This document shows, piece after piece, positions 28,992-61,460 of a stretch of 64,000 bases of DNA. A program made the position numbers and the translations under genes. Source of the DNA: Bryobacteraceae bacterium (GTDB taxonomy: Bacteria; Acidobacteriota; Terriglobia; Bryobacterales; Bryobacteraceae). Location of the stretch: positions 1 to 64,000 of the forward strand of contig JAICXC010000004.1 in NCBI GenBank assembly GCA_025980665.1, read 5' to 3'. Within the stretch, counting starts at the first letter, position 1. Each line of letters starts with the position of its first letter. The notes beneath the pieces are model-generated. The model made no database searches, was not told the DNA's origin, and saw only the letters and a program-made list of their open reading frames with translations.

Positions 28992-29729
28992 CTATCGAGT
29001 AATGGAGAACGGTCTTATAAGGGCAAGCATGCCCGACAGTCCCAACGCAGTGAGAATCCATGACCCGGGCTCAGGCACGGAAGGCCCCGGAGCGTTGACG
29101 ATCACAACTGGTGTTCCATTGGCATCGAATAATTGAAGCCGCACAATTGCATCGCTAGATCCTCCGTCATACACATGTTGATAATCCCGCTTTTGCCCAT
29201 ACGCGGCGACGGATAATCCAATTTCAAACGGGACTCCCAACTCAAACGGTACGAGCGATCCACTCTGATGGCACAACACGACCTGGCAGGAAGCCAAGCC
29301 GCTAATGAAGCTCGATTCGAAAGACCCGCCATCAGCGCCGTGGTCACCATCTGAGTACACCACAAACGTAGCAAAACCCTGGCGTTCCGGTCCGTCTGTA
29401 GCAGCGAAGAAATCGAGATTCACGGCGGCGATCGCCGAAGACCCAAGAGTTAAAATGGTGGGCCCCGGTAAAATTGTCCCGGCTGCGGCCTCTGCGTTTG
29501 CTTCGATGTTCAAACCATTCGGGGTATTTAGCCCAAGGATCGATATCGCACCGCTGGCGTCGACTTTCTCGGTTCCATATACCGCGCCGGCCATACCCAT
29601 ACAGTCAACTGGCTGACCCGCAACCGTGCAAGCCGTGGAAATAACTGGGGCTGGAGCAGGTTCCGTGAGAGTGCTGGCGAGGGCCGCAGGGACCAGCATC
29701 CATAGGAAGCTGGTTTTTAGGTTAATCAT
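28992..29729 (-). CDS. PEP-CTERM sorting-domain protein
   Basis: 245 residues from the ATG at 29729 (MINLKTSFLWMLVPAALAS signal); an upstream ATG at 29777 in the same frame would only add residues before the signal. A Ser/Gly-rich secreted body is followed by VPEPGSWILTALGLSGMLALIR, the PEP-CTERM signal: PEP motif, hydrophobic helix and basic tail. Such proteins are processed by an exosortase (not in this window) and surface-exposed with exopolysaccharide. The body function is unknown. Confidence 0.88.
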   Translation of the reverse strand: MINLKTSFLWMLVPAALASTLTEPAPAPVISTACTVAGQPVDCMGMAGAVYGTEKVDASGAISILGLNTPNGLNIEANAEAAAGTILPGPTILTLGSSAIAAVNLDFFAATDGPERQGFATFVVYSDGDHGADGGSFESSFISGLASCQVVLCHQSGSLVPFELGVPFEIGLSVAAYGQKRDYQHVYDGGSSDAIVRLQLFDANGTPVVIVNAPGPSVPEPGSWILTALGLSGMLALIRPFSITR

Positions 29730-30137
29730 TGTGGAACAACCCGTCCATATCGTATTCCACTTGCGGTCCAACTTCAAGGTAATTGCGAGTGCCAGACGGG
29801 ACTATATCAACCCTGCCTATGTCTTAGCGCTTTGTTTGTGCGGAGCAAGGAATGTCGCGGCGAGTGCCCGAGGCGAGGCCGCTATGGCCCCTGACTTGCA
29901 TACCCTGAGGCGGAGCAAATGGCACTCACAGAACAACGATTGGAAACCAAGTTATACCCGTTACTGGCGGCGGAACATGAAAGGCTGCATCTCGTTGCCG
30001 CGTGGCCTCACAGCGCTTATAAAGACGCCGTGATGAAGGCCATCAAATCTTCCATCCAGAGCTTGACGGCCGGAACGCCCACTTCATTCTCATGCATGGT
30101 CTGTCTCAAATCGGCCACACTTACAGCGATTCCTTCA

Positions 30138-35473: not shown

Positions 35474-36235
35474 ATGCAGTACAAAGCTTTCCTTTTGACG
35501 ACGGCTCTCGGTCTCGTTTTTACCCACCCTTCCTTTGCACAAGGACCTGTCGGTGACGAGGTTATCGTCACTTTCGACCAGACGGTGCAGGTCGGCTCTC
35601 ACAGTCTTCCAGCCGGCAAGTATACGATTAAGCAAGTGACCAGCGCTAGCAATCCGCGTGTGCTGGAATTCACTTCTGACAATGGCACGAAACTGGACGC
35701 GACCATCGCTGCTGTGCCGATCCTTCAAAATACGCCTCCCTCAAAGACACGGGTCATCCTCGACAATGAGGGCGGGGCACTTCGGGTATCGCGGATCTGG
35801 GTGCAGGGAAAAAGTTACGGATATGAATTCCCGGGCAACGGCAATGCCAGCGCGGCCGCCGTTAATGGGGTTGCTCTCCAGGGAACGTATGTGGCCCAAA
35901 CTGCTCCGCCCGCCGCACCTGCGGTAGCCCAGCAGAGGACGCCAGAGCCGGTGCCGGCACCGGCGCCCATTGCGCAATCAGCGCCACCGGCCAATAACGC
36001 TGTGGTCGCGCAGAATCGACCGGCGGAAACGCCCGCACCCCCGCCGCAGACTCAGACGACGCCGGCTCCGTCATCGCAATCATCGAATCAGAGTGCGGCA
36101 TCGTCCGATACCGCGCGGAATACCACGCGCGAAGTCCCTGCAACTGCGCTGGGGTGGATGCAGCTGGCGCTACTCGGCATGGCATTGGTTTCCGCGGGCG
36201 GATTTCTCTATTGGCGTGAACGTTCAAACCGATAG
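35474..36235 (+). CDS. Secreted protein with VPATA-type C-terminal sorting signal (sortase substrate candidate)
   Basis: 253 residues. Signal peptide residues 1-22 (ending PSFAQ); a compact N-terminal domain to about residue 140 with FDQTVQVGSHSLPAGKYTIK; a Pro/Ala/Gln-rich spacer (about 140-215); then EVPATALGW, a hydrophobic helix (MQLALLGMALVSAGGFLY) and the basic end WRERSNR. That end has the plan of a sortase signal: motif, helix and positive tail, with VPATA as a variant of LPxTG/LPxTA. ATG follows TTCAGGAGAAG. A class D-like sortase gene starts 32 bases later, which makes this its likely substrate (inference). Confidence 0.75.
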   Translation: MQYKAFLLTTALGLVFTHPSFAQGPVGDEVIVTFDQTVQVGSHSLPAGKYTIKQVTSASNPRVLEFTSDNGTKLDATIAAVPILQNTPPSKTRVILDNEGGALRVSRIWVQGKSYGYEFPGNGNASAAAVNGVALQGTYVAQTAPPAAPAVAQQRTPEPVPAPAPIAQSAPPANNAVVAQNRPAETPAPPPQTQTTPAPSSQSSNQSAASSDTARNTTREVPATALGWMQLALLGMALVSAGGFLYWRERSNR

Positions 36236-36267
36236 CAGGCAGGTTAGTAAAGGCCAATAAGAGTACG

Positions 36268-36807
36268 ATGCGACGTCTTGCTTTTGCGCTGATGGCCGTG
36301 GGGTGTGTAATTGCCCTCGCCGGTGGATCGTTGGGTCTGGCGGGTTGGACAGGCCAGCAGAGCGCAAAGGCTCTTTGGGCTGATGGAGTCACCGGATTTC
36401 ACGGCGCCACCGGCAAGTACACCCGACTTTCGTTCCCTGCGCACCACACCGACTTTATCGTACGGGACGGAGCGTCAGTCGAGAATCTAATGCTGGGTCC
36501 AGCCCGTTTGGAATGGTCTAGTATCCCGGGAGACAGAGGCAACTCCGTAATTGCCGCGCACCGCGACACCCATTTCCGAATTCTGAAAGATCTTAAGAAG
36601 GGCGAGGTCATTACGCTTGAGCGGCATGGTCAAGCATTCCAGTACCGGATCGTGACGCTCGAGATCGTGCGGCCCACGGACAACACCTTCTACCAGCCGA
36701 CTTCCAAGGCCGTGCTGACGCTGGTGACTTGCTATCCATTTTACTACCTCGGCCCTGCGCCGAAACGTTTTATCGTGCGAGCGGAATTGCTCGACGCAAC
36801 CAGCTAG
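36268..36807 (+). CDS. Class D-like sortase
   Basis: 179 residues, with an N-terminal membrane anchor (LAFALMAVGCVIALAGGSLGLAG) and the sortase fold. Visible catalytic elements are AAHRDTHF (His) and TLVTCYPF (Cys) with RFIVRAEL (Arg). The TCYPF spelling is typical of class D sortases from Gram-negative bacteria. The enzyme would cleave a sorting motif and join or release the substrate in the periplasm. It lies 32 bases after the VPATA protein gene. Confidence 0.88.
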   Translation: MRRLAFALMAVGCVIALAGGSLGLAGWTGQQSAKALWADGVTGFHGATGKYTRLSFPAHHTDFIVRDGASVENLMLGPARLEWSSIPGDRGNSVIAAHRDTHFRILKDLKKGEVITLERHGQAFQYRIVTLEIVRPTDNTFYQPTSKAVLTLVTCYPFYYLGPAPKRFIVRAELLDATS

Positions 36808-36858
36808 AAGCGGTTCTACATCGTGGTCATCAAGAGGGGAAATTCAGGAGGTCTAGTT

Positions 36859-39800
36859 ATGTCTCGAAATAGGGTATTTAGAAAAACTTTAAGCGCGACG
36901 ATCTTGTTGTGCGCGGGCGCGTATGGGTCCTTTGCCCAAAACCGGCCCGTTCAACCGACTCAAGCGAGTCCCTCAGCTGCCGCGGGCACGCCCGGCACTT
37001 TCTCTGGCCGGCTGACCGGCGGCGGCATGGACGGAGCCACCGTGACGATCACCAACGCCGCCACTGGAGCGTCCCAAACAGCCACAGCCGACAGCAACGG
37101 CATGTTCACGTTTGCCAATCTTACGCCAGGCTCATATCGGGTGATGGTTCGCCTGAAGTCCGGGCTGCAATTGGAAGAGAGCACGATGGAAGTGACTCCC
37201 GCGGGGGGCCCGATCCAAGTCGCGTTTACTTCGCGAACAGGGGGAACTGCCGCGAACCTCGAGTTGGACGGCACGGCGCCAACAGTCGAGACTAACTCAG
37301 CCGAAGTGTCGCGAAGCTATGACAGCCAGACCATTCGGTCTCTTCCGATTCTGGATCGCCAGAATCAGGAACTGATCACGCTCATGCCCGGAATCACGCC
37401 GCCTATGACTGCAACGGACCGAATCAATGATCCGCAAAGGACGCGCTCCTTTAATGTGAACGGACAGGCAGCTTATACCAATCTATACAACCAAGATGGC
37501 GCCTATGATAACGAGCCGTTCTCAGGACGTCCGCTGCGCACGGAGCCAGACGAAGCCGTGGAGGCGCTGGAAGTTCGCACCAGCAACTACAACGCGGAAT
37601 ATGGAATAGCTGCGGGCAGCTGGGCGAGCACCGTTACACGTCCTGGGACGAATGCGATTCACGGGAGCCTTTTCGAATTCAACACCAATAGCTATTTCAG
37701 AAGCGGCAAAACTTTGGCCGCCTCGCAAACCAGTCCGCGCTTCAATACCAACCAATTCGGTGCTACGGCAGGAGCCGCGATGATCCCCGATCGGATGTTC
37801 TGGTTCTTGTCCTATGAAGGATATATTCAGCGTGGCGGTCAGGAGGCTGTCGCAACGGTTCCAACGGCTGGATTTGCATCCGGCAACTTTAGCCAGGTTC
37901 CAGGCGCGACGATCTTCAACCCACAAAGCAGTATCTTTGGAGGATCGCGGACGCCATTTCCTGGTAACGTCATTCCCGGATTTCAGTTCAATCCAACTTC
38001 TCAACGTATTCTGGCGCAGCTTCCGGCACCGAATCTGCCTGGATTCTCTAATAATCTGGTGGGCAGTATTCCGCTACTCGATGACAATCATCGCCTGGAC
38101 GGGAAACTCGACTATCGCTTCTCCGAGAAAACCACCGGGTTCCTGCGCTATGGCTTCACTGAGTCGAGCGTGGATCAAGGGTCCTTGCTCGGGCCAGTTG
38201 GAAGTCCGCTCAATTCCGAGTTTCGCGGTATGAACGCAGTCGGCAGCATTACACAGATCTTCACGACCAATCTACTGGCGGAGTTTCGGCTGGGATATGA
38301 CCGGTATCGGAATCAGATCGCTCCATGGAATTCGGCGGGTCTGACGGGACTTCCTGGGTTTCCCAACGGCCTCCCGTCCATTAACATCTCGGGATTTTCT
38401 CCTTTAGGATTGCCGGTGAACGTTCCCAGGAAAGAAACGGATAACGTTTATGATGGCGCAAGCAACTGGATGTATCATACGGGGATTCACTCGCTAAAGA
38501 TTGGTGTCGGCGCCCGGGAGCTCCAGTCGAATGGCTTCAGCAATCCATTCTTCAACAGTCTGGGAAGCTTCGAGTTCGGTCCTGGCGCGACTCTGGGAAC
38601 GACGGCTTCAGCTGCGACTTTAAGTCCCACAGCCCTGCAAGCCAATGCTATCGCGGCGTTTTTGGTGGGTGCCCCCACGCAGTCGGGTATTTCTACCTTT
38701 ACAACGACCCCCGCGTATCGGCAGAGACAATACTCAGCCTATCTGACCGACACTCTGAACCTGTTTCAGAAGCTATACCTTGAGTTAGGGGTTCGTTACG
38801 ACATCTTCAGTCCACTCGAGCCTGGACAGGCCGGAGGGGCGGTGGTTTATGATCCTGCGACCAACACAACTGCCACCTTAGGAGTCAATGGTGTCGGGAT
38901 ACGATCGACCCGTACGGACCTGAATAATGTAGCGCCCCGCGTGGGTTTGGCTTTTCGTCCGACGAACCGATTTGTGTTCCGGGGGGGCTATGGGATTCAT
39001 TATTTCCCGATTCCATTCTTCCTGAGCGGCTTCAATCCCGCAGTGCGGGGCGTACAATCTGGAATCGCCGGCGGCATTGCCACGACAACCTTCGCGAATC
39101 CCACGATTCCACCAAGTGGAAACACGGCTCCGAATCAGCCTTTCTTCACGGGCCAAAGGGATGTCAACACACCTTACATCCAAACTTACAGCGGCATGAT
39201 CCAGGGAGACATGGGAAATGGATTCCTATTGGATATTGGCTACGTCGGCAATCGAGGACGGCAGTTGCCTTATGAGATCACTCAAACGGGTCTACCGGGC
39301 TCAGGACTCACGGGACAACTGGCGAATCGTACTGCTGCGCTGATCCAGACTGGCACAGGGCTGAACAGCAATTACAACTCACTGCAAGTAAATCTTACCA
39401 AACGATTCGCGGCAGGCTTGTCCTTCGCCGGCGCCTACACCTACGGGAAAGCTCTGGACTATGGCACGAACCTGCTTGATCCTTTCAATCGTGGAAATAA
39501 CTATGGTCCGGCTGATTGGGATCGTACTCACATACTCTCAGTGAGTCACGATTGGCGTCTTCCTTTCAAAAAGACGGGCTGGGTAGGACGAGCCGTGGCT
39601 GACTGGGAGATTACAGGGATCCTCCGTTGGGCTACTGGAACTCCGTATACCGTCACTGCGGATCCGCTGGCCTGCGGATGCTTGGGAGCGTCGGCCGTGC
39701 CGGCGGCCTTCAATTCCGCTACCACAAACGGGTCGACAAACAATGGCTCGTCGTCGTTTAATCCCGGCTCCTTCACCTCTCCGGCCGCGGGGACTTTCGG

Positions 39801-40047
39801 CAACCTGGCGCGTAATGCTTTCCGAGGCCCGGACATGTTCGTGTACAACGCGGCGCTTTTCCGCAACTTCGCGGTTCGTGAAAACATTAAGCTCGAATTT
39901 CGCGGAGAAGCCTACAACCTTACCAATACGACCAATCCCATGAATCCGATATCGAATTTTACGACACCGGGATTCGGGACCTCGATCGGGAATATAGACG
40001 GCCTCGCGGGACGTCAATTTCAGGTTGCCGCGCGAATATTGTTTTAG
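36859..40047 (+). CDS. TonB-dependent receptor with carboxypeptidase-regulatory-like domain
   Basis: 1062 residues from ATG 36859, placed 7 bases after an AGGAGG; the frame is open to 36823 but that start lacks a site. Signal MSRNRVFRKTLSATILLCAGAYGSFAQ, regulatory-like domain (residues about 45-130), plug with RSFNVNGQAAYTN, and barrel ending ARILF. It follows the sortase gene by 51 bases, so sortase, substrate and receptor may be cotranscribed. It differs from the other receptors in having a Ser/Asn-rich insert and no NCHC motif. Substrate unknown. Confidence 0.87.
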   Translation: MSRNRVFRKTLSATILLCAGAYGSFAQNRPVQPTQASPSAAAGTPGTFSGRLTGGGMDGATVTITNAATGASQTATADSNGMFTFANLTPGSYRVMVRLKSGLQLEESTMEVTPAGGPIQVAFTSRTGGTAANLELDGTAPTVETNSAEVSRSYDSQTIRSLPILDRQNQELITLMPGITPPMTATDRINDPQRTRSFNVNGQAAYTNLYNQDGAYDNEPFSGRPLRTEPDEAVEALEVRTSNYNAEYGIAAGSWASTVTRPGTNAIHGSLFEFNTNSYFRSGKTLAASQTSPRFNTNQFGATAGAAMIPDRMFWFLSYEGYIQRGGQEAVATVPTAGFASGNFSQVPGATIFNPQSSIFGGSRTPFPGNVIPGFQFNPTSQRILAQLPAPNLPGFSNNLVGSIPLLDDNHRLDGKLDYRFSEKTTGFLRYGFTESSVDQGSLLGPVGSPLNSEFRGMNAVGSITQIFTTNLLAEFRLGYDRYRNQIAPWNSAGLTGLPGFPNGLPSINISGFSPLGLPVNVPRKETDNVYDGASNWMYHTGIHSLKIGVGARELQSNGFSNPFFNSLGSFEFGPGATLGTTASAATLSPTALQANAIAAFLVGAPTQSGISTFTTTPAYRQRQYSAYLTDTLNLFQKLYLELGVRYDIFSPLEPGQAGGAVVYDPATNTTATLGVNGVGIRSTRTDLNNVAPRVGLAFRPTNRFVFRGGYGIHYFPIPFFLSGFNPAVRGVQSGIAGGIATTTFANPTIPPSGNTAPNQPFFTGQRDVNTPYIQTYSGMIQGDMGNGFLLDIGYVGNRGRQLPYEITQTGLPGSGLTGQLANRTAALIQTGTGLNSNYNSLQVNLTKRFAAGLSFAGAYTYGKALDYGTNLLDPFNRGNNYGPADWDRTHILSVSHDWRLPFKKTGWVGRAVADWEITGILRWATGTPYTVTADPLACGCLGASAVPAAFNSATTNGSTNNGSSSFNPGSFTSPAAGTFGNLARNAFRGPDMFVYNAALFRNFAVRENIKLEFRGEAYNLTNTTNPMNPISNFTTPGFGTSIGNIDGLAGRQFQVAARILF

Positions 40048-40099: not shown

Positions 40100-40129
40100 T
40101 GTCTGCTGTCGCGAAGAGGTATTTCGCTT

Positions 40130-60716: not shown

Positions 60717-61460
60717 TTAAGAACGAACGGCTTTCCGCGCGAACGCCAGTCCGATCAAGCCAACTCCCATAAGCAGCATGGTGGTCGGTTCCGGAACAGT
60801 CGTGTTACTGGGGCTAACCTGAGCCAGGAAGAAAGTCTCCGGTCCTCCTGTGGCACTCGAAGCCGAAGCGCTGAGACCGACGATGTTATTCGGGTTGTTA
60901 AATGCACCCGCCGTCGCAGCAGCCGTAGCTTGTGCACTGTCGAGTTTGAACTGGTAACCCGCTCCGCCGACGCCGCTGATGGTCGTCGGGAATGCGCAGT
61001 TCGTTAAGCCCGCAGCCGTACAGCTCACGCCTCCGCTTTGGAAGAGTAGAGTCCCCGTGGGGCTATAGAACGCCACATTCAGCCCGGACAGCGTGATGCC
61101 TCCACCGGCCGGCTCATCGGCGTTAAAAATCACCGAAAAGGTGCTGGCAGTCACTGCCCCATTGCCGATCGCCGATAAAGTTGCAGTTGACGTCTGGGAT
61201 GCCCCAGTTTTGACATCGCCACTGCTTCCCGTGCAAGTACCACCGGCGTTCATAGCACTTCCCAGAAGATTGTTAAACCCGACACATCCCGTCTCGGTGG
61301 TCGCTGCACCCGAGCTCTGGATCGTTAGAATTGTCGGTTCACTGCCAATCCCCGCCCCCGATATGGGAGTCAGGCCTTGCAGTATTAGACTGGCATGTGC
61401 CGCTGGAGCTAGACCCAGCGCCACTGCAAATACAGGTCCCAGTACTACTAACTGTTTCAT
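60717..61460 (-). CDS. PEP-CTERM sorting-domain protein
   Basis: 247 residues. Signal MKQLVVLGPVFAVALGLAPAAHAS, a Ser/Thr/Gly-rich beta body with two or three cysteines, then VPEPTTMLLMGVGLIGLAFARKAVRS, a clear PEP-CTERM signal. ATG at 61460 follows GGAGGACAATGAAAG. Surface-exposed after exosortase processing. The body resembles choice-of-anchor proteins; function unknown. Confidence 0.9.
   Translation of the reverse strand: MKQLVVLGPVFAVALGLAPAAHASLILQGLTPISGAGIGSEPTILTIQSSGAATTETGCVGFNNLLGSAMNAGGTCTGSSGDVKTGASQTSTATLSAIGNGAVTASTFSVIFNADEPAGGGITLSGLNVAFYSPTGTLLFQSGGVSCTAAGLTNCAFPTTISGVGGAGYQFKLDSAQATAAATAGAFNNPNNIVGLSASASSATGGPETFFLAQVSPSNTTVPEPTTMLLMGVGLIGLAFARKAVRS

Follow-up and report, generated by a model that had tools for sequence, protein, structure and literature searches.

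A putative sortase and its tailed substrate are inherited together through a family of Acidobacteriota, with a linked outer-membrane receptor

The stretch of DNA analysed here (64,000 nucleotides from a two-membraned soil bacterium; the window) encodes in a row a secreted protein with a C-terminal sorting signal, a sortase and a TonB-type outer-membrane barrel. Judged from the encoded proteins, the C-terminal tag and the sortase are inherited together through the whole bacterial family. Comparative genomics of these predicted proteins further shows the pairing of the two genes, the retention of the catalytic residues, the matching of tail types to sortase types and the linkage of the receptor. 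We favour, with a probability of about 0.6, a three-gene operon in which a dedicated sortase, encoded between its substrate and a partner outer-membrane barrel, would anchor the substrate, and the substrate would work with the barrel.

A tailed substrate directly before a sortase

The initial annotation had placed a secreted protein with a sorting tail directly before a sortase, and both open reading frames were recovered as described (Table 1). The substrate ends in VPATALGWMQLALLGMALVSAGGFLYWRERSNR. This C-terminus has the motif, membrane helix and basic tail of an LPXTG-type sorting signal and, like such signals, is portable between unrelated proteins. The VPATA tail is not a product of chance, since it is kept as VPATALGW in the closest relative (L223) and since the homologous tails align with it, with the P, T and W invariant. 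The beta domain is about 95 residues long; its variant in the clade of the window sortase (the W clade, see below) has a conserved W-x-x-GKxYGYEF. No covering family for the substrate was found in NCBIfam or Pfam, where the beta domain gave a weak match to DUF2911 and nothing stronger, and a PDB fold search with the model of the domain returned no match. The protein had been described as not of the VIT-domain type, and profile scans indeed found neither a VIT nor a VWA domain in it. A tailless secreted beta-domain paralogue is encoded elsewhere in the same genome (L323:1005-1541, on contig C197 of G000).

The second gene scored 94.6 bits with PF04203, against a gathering score of 26.6 (E=5e-27). 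Its AlphaFold model (pLDDT 92) matched sortases C, D and E in the PDB at E ~1e-12, and the domain score, the His/Cys/Arg triad and the fold match together place the protein in the sortase superfamily. The best profile and PDB sequence matches were to class D (PDB 2ln7 and 4d70), which the initial annotation had proposed, but the protein scored 105 of the 165 bits set for NF033746 and 109.8 of the 140 set for NF058671. It reached 104.4 with the class GN profile TIGR03784 (cut-off 158.25) and, far under the cut-off, 56 of 160 with the class C profile. Because the protein reaches no class-specific cut-off, be it for class D, SrtD or GN, we claim no class membership, and class D stands as a best guess.

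Table 1 Coordinates of the features discussed, in window positions unless a locus is given
Feature	Position	Strand	Basis
Sortase substrate gene, secreted beta-domain protein with C-terminal sorting signal, 253 aa	35474..36235	+	homologues adjoin nearly every family sortase
Predicted signal peptide, aa 1-22 (..PSFA/QG, cut at the slash)	35474..35539	+	sequence reading; hydrophobic N-terminal helix in model
Beta domain, ~aa 29-120, W-clade variant	35558..35833	+	AlphaFold pLDDT 84-96 over residues 31-120; alignments
Pro/Ala/Gln-rich low-confidence linker, aa 121-220	35834..36133	+	sequence and model
VPATA motif, aa 221-225, predicted cleavage T224/A225	36134..36148	+	P222 and T224 invariant in two alignments
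Trp228, membrane helix and basic C-terminal tail (WRERSNR)	36155..36232	+	W invariant in tail alignment; helix 227-252 in model
Sortase gene, 179 aa; N-terminal membrane helix 2-38, catalytic domain 52-174	36268..36807	+	PF04203 5e-27; structure
Catalytic His98 codon	36559..36561	+	invariant in 82/82 sortases
Catalytic Cys155 codon	36730..36732	+	invariant in 82/82 sortases
Catalytic Arg167 codon	36766..36768	+	invariant in 82/82 sortases
OMP_b-brl_4 / CarboxypepD_reg outer-membrane receptor; alternative start 36823	36859..40047	+	Pfam; linkage in seven genomes
Terminator-like hairpin 3' of receptor, weak	40111..40127	+	not above chance level in this region
Short low-complexity secreted proteins with W-type tail	L289:65-376 (G057:C106); L290:57-515 (G096:C171)		

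The substrate and sortase genes are 32 nt apart and the receptor ATG at 36859, which has an AGGAGG before it (36846-36851), follows the sortase by 51 nt; these short gaps suggest a single three-gene operon. No sigma-70-like promoter was found upstream of it, and terminators in the operon region did not exceed chance.

Conservation of the pair in the family and the phylum

Sortases were found in 69 of the 101 family genomes searched, and 79 family sortase loci were compared for their neighbourhood. Nearly all adjoin a tailed beta-domain homologue that lies upstream on the same strand and ends in an [LM]PxT[AGSD] tail. At L139 the tailed protein is encoded downstream of the sortase instead; L099 and L131 have no tailed beta-domain protein, and both loci are at contig ends. 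Conservation of the tail motif next to the sortase had been set beforehand as a test that could overturn the pair, and the motif proved conserved; the catalytic residues, named for the same purpose, did not vary among the 82 sortases compared. Distances among sortases correlated with those among their substrates (r=0.73; 0/2000 permutations).

Across the phylum an LPxTA-type tail was detected (E<1e-3) in 47 genomes, every one of which also encodes a sortase, against 59 of 297 genomes overall; the tail model was trained on the family, to which 44 of the 47 do not belong, and kinship is ignored in these counts. Twelve sortase genomes have no tail at that threshold. Most of the genomes compared are MAGs and are not independent of each other. 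What had been put forward as a distinct acidobacterial system is a real sortase and substrate pair of the Acidobacteriota, with MAGs of the Bryobacterales and Bryobacteraceae as the nearest genomes that bear a name. It does not stand alone, being a clade within a broader acidobacterial family. The literature searched on acidobacterial sortase systems yielded nothing beyond a COG tally that lists six sortases for Solibacter usitatus (PMC3174227).

The window's own genome, whose assembly is 89% complete, encodes three sortases, in the window and on contigs C41 and C88. A genome-wide search for further tails, which the initial annotation had proposed, was run with profiles of two tail types and returned exactly three significant tails, in the window (1e-12), on C88 (3e-14) and on C41 (6e-13), the next matches being above 0.1; the tally is three sortases to three tailed substrates. 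The gene on C88 is cut at the contig end and continues on C56 (302-bp overlap, 99% identical), and the C41 substrate is divergent to its sortase. At the C41 locus (L064:7740-8621) an OMP_b-brl gene (PF13505), and no VWA gene, lies before the sortase.

Two sortase clades with matching tails

The window sortase belongs to a clade of 16 in a maximum-likelihood tree (support 100/99). Substrates of this W clade directly precede the sortase and end in [MVL]PxT[ASD]xxW in 15 of the 16 cases, with Phe in L071, whereas the other clade has mostly LPxTASxxPL-like tails. A tree of the beta domains, built without the tails, gave the same two-way split. The neighbourhoods differ as well: of the 66 loci of the other clade, 53 have a secreted VWA gene immediately before the sortase, versus 0 of 13 loci of the W clade, and all three VWA proteins that were scanned scored above the TIGR03436 cut-off. 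Some VWA-bearing loci of the other clade (L079-L143 set) also have a malic enzyme gene.

A profile of the W tails matched 14 of the 101 family genomes, exactly the 14 with a W-clade sortase (Fisher 2e-17, with kinship ignored and with most training tails from the same 14 genomes). Since the training tails share this origin, the informative part of the result is the absence of matches in the 87 other genomes, together with the extra matches. G054, G057 and G096 each have two W tails and one W-clade sortase. In G057 and G096 the second tail is on a short low-complexity secreted protein with no beta domain (L289 and L290 in Table 1). These two proteins match the substrate profile (4e-9 and 1e-7), on inspection through the tail alone, no beta domain being readable in them, and we predict that they are extra sortase substrates; W tails on such proteins show that the sorting signal is portable. 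The one-sortase, one-substrate arrangement proposed at the outset holds locally and in the genome-wide tally given above; as a strict rule it is ruled out by the second W tails of these three genomes.

Some receptor-linked substrates lack a sortase gene nearby, and for these the tail can be compared with the sortase present elsewhere in the genome. The tail is of the W type in G054, whose sortase belongs to the W clade, and not of the W type in G071 and G064, which have one sortase each, outside the W-clade loci; the G064 sortase is absent from the tree, but a VWA gene accompanies it, as is usual in the other clade. This small natural experiment of three genomes favours tail and sortase matching. 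The W tail and the PL tail are accordingly read by us as a putative recognition code matched to the two sortase clades. In the comparison of the 82 sortases, Pro78 and His102 set the W clade apart and are candidate specificity residues for reading the substrate Trp.

An outer-membrane receptor linked to the substrate

The receptor has a PF25183 barrel and a PF13620 CarboxypepD_reg domain; PF00593 scored 26 of 27, just under the cut-off, and a PDB search with the receptor returned no matches. Receptors of this type are common, with others inside the same 64-kb window, so that adjacency alone means little. An orthologue of this particular receptor, however, follows the pair in L223 (68% identity), L071 (50%) and L226 (41%). 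In L241, L242 and L243 there is no local sortase, and the orthologue adjoins a tailed beta-domain protein, in reversed order in L243. With the window (G000) this makes seven genomes in which it is linked to a tailed beta-domain protein. Identities within the orthologue group are 46-68%, and 41% for L226, versus about 25% for the other receptors of the window.

When receptors were searched for across the family, a tailed beta-domain protein adjoined each of the four best matches and the G071 copy, but the roughly 25 lower-scoring receptor loci that were examined had none beside them. The receptor-linked beta domains, with one exception among the seven, form one clade (support 100), to which those of G054, G071 and G064, compared above, belong. 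Most W-clade genomes have no receptor beside the pair, and it is therefore not needed by all members. The downstream TonB-type barrel nevertheless looks like a real partner of the substrate and sortase pair, and the earlier suggestion that it belongs with them appears to hold on this orthologue linkage.

Proposed mechanism and alternative readings

Where the sortase cuts, which nucleophile takes up the substrate and what the substrate does with the receptor we infer as follows. Sec would export the substrate, and its C-terminal helix would hold it in the inner membrane. The periplasm-facing sortase would recognise VPATAxxW, cut between Thr224 and Ala225 through Cys155 and transfer the substrate to an amine, steps that follow established sortase biochemistry. 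Class D sortases cut LPxTA-type motifs and attach the product to the diaminopimelate (DAP) of lipid II; by analogy with this precedent, the acceptor is most likely to be meso-diaminopimelate of lipid II or peptidoglycan. To our knowledge, there is little precedent for sortase products on diderm peptidoglycan. With its long Pro-rich linker the beta domain would then join the Oar-like TonB-type barrel in a task at the outer membrane or close to it, either tethered to the wall as a partner of the barrel or serving as its cargo or subunit. A function related to the receptor is suggested by the linkage. In Myxococcus, Oar is a CarboxypepD_reg TonB-type barrel required for secretion of the protease PopC (PMC6434023), which makes a role of the window receptor in export or tethering conceivable. 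That the sortase product, tethered to wall or membrane, serves one such Oar-like barrel specifically as periplasmic tether, plug partner or export cargo is a tentative proposal, and in the literature searched we found no sortase product linked to a TonB-type barrel.

The pair may instead be active in a different way, with the sortase mainly releasing the substrate, by hydrolysis or transfer to a small amine, as a free periplasmic or secreted protein. The long soluble linker would suit a free protein, tailless beta-domain paralogues exist, and C-terminal processing of GlyGly-CTERM proteins by rhombosortase is known in a diderm (PMC6219818); the sortase fold and triad, however, are of the transpeptidase type, and we consider release unlikely, though the least so of the alternatives. 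The pair could also work alone beside a receptor that is a chance neighbour. The great number of OMP_b-brl_4 receptors in these genomes and the many W-clade loci without one speak for this, but linkage of one orthologue group to the beta-domain protein in seven genomes, persisting in reversed order (one case) and without a sortase (three), disfavours it, and we now hold it to be improbable.

Polymerisation of the substrate into a pilus-like fibre, in the manner of class C, would agree with the class C structures among the best fold matches. The low class C score, the absence of a second pilin gene from the locus and a substrate that has one small domain and a long disordered linker make this very improbable. 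It is harder still to believe that the tail is a membrane anchor only and that the adjoining sortase acts elsewhere: the tail is plausible as a transmembrane helix, but the P and T of its motif are invariant, tail types match sortase clades and the two co-occur strongly across the phylum.

Comparison with known systems

The anchored, barrel-linked system that we favour can be set beside several known ones. The class GN cassettes of Gram-negative bacteria consist of a dedicated sortase (TIGR03784) and a VIT/VWA target (TIGR03788) encoded by adjacent genes (PMC3237569). The window pair shares with them the dedicated sortase, the single adjacent target, the Gram-negative cell and an LPxT-type tail. 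It differs in that the target is a small beta-domain protein, and the acidobacterial VWA protein is either absent (W clade) or encoded by a separate gene before the sortase (other clade, TIGR03436). A tailed beta-domain protein and a separate VWA protein together look like the proteobacterial VIT/VWA target split into two genes. Class D shares the LPxTA-type motif, while the host here is a diderm and the W-type substrates have a Trp four residues past the Thr. Dedicated sortase systems of diderms are thus known, and the window pair is a variant new to them.

The receptor resembles Oar in its N-terminal CarboxypepD_reg domain (PF13620) followed by an outer-membrane barrel, so that the two are likened by architecture; the architecture in PMC6434023 uses PF00593 and a plug domain, whereas the window barrel is PF25183 and adjoins a sortase substrate, not a protease.

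What sortases do in cells with an outer membrane is in large part unsettled, and a system present family-wide offers a concrete handle on it. Its clear substrate, putative recognition code and specific outer-membrane partner open that question to direct testing, and two candidate specificity residues give a place to begin.

PEP-CTERM/exosortase and GlyGly-CTERM/rhombosortase systems likewise combine a tripartite C-terminal signal with a cognate processing enzyme in diderms, although those enzymes are unrelated to sortase. PEP-CTERM-type tails occur in the window on two secreted proteins (28992-29777 and 60717-61460, both on the minus strand), and two exosortases are encoded in the same genome, on contigs C58 and C70, giving a second C-terminal sorting system alongside the sortases.
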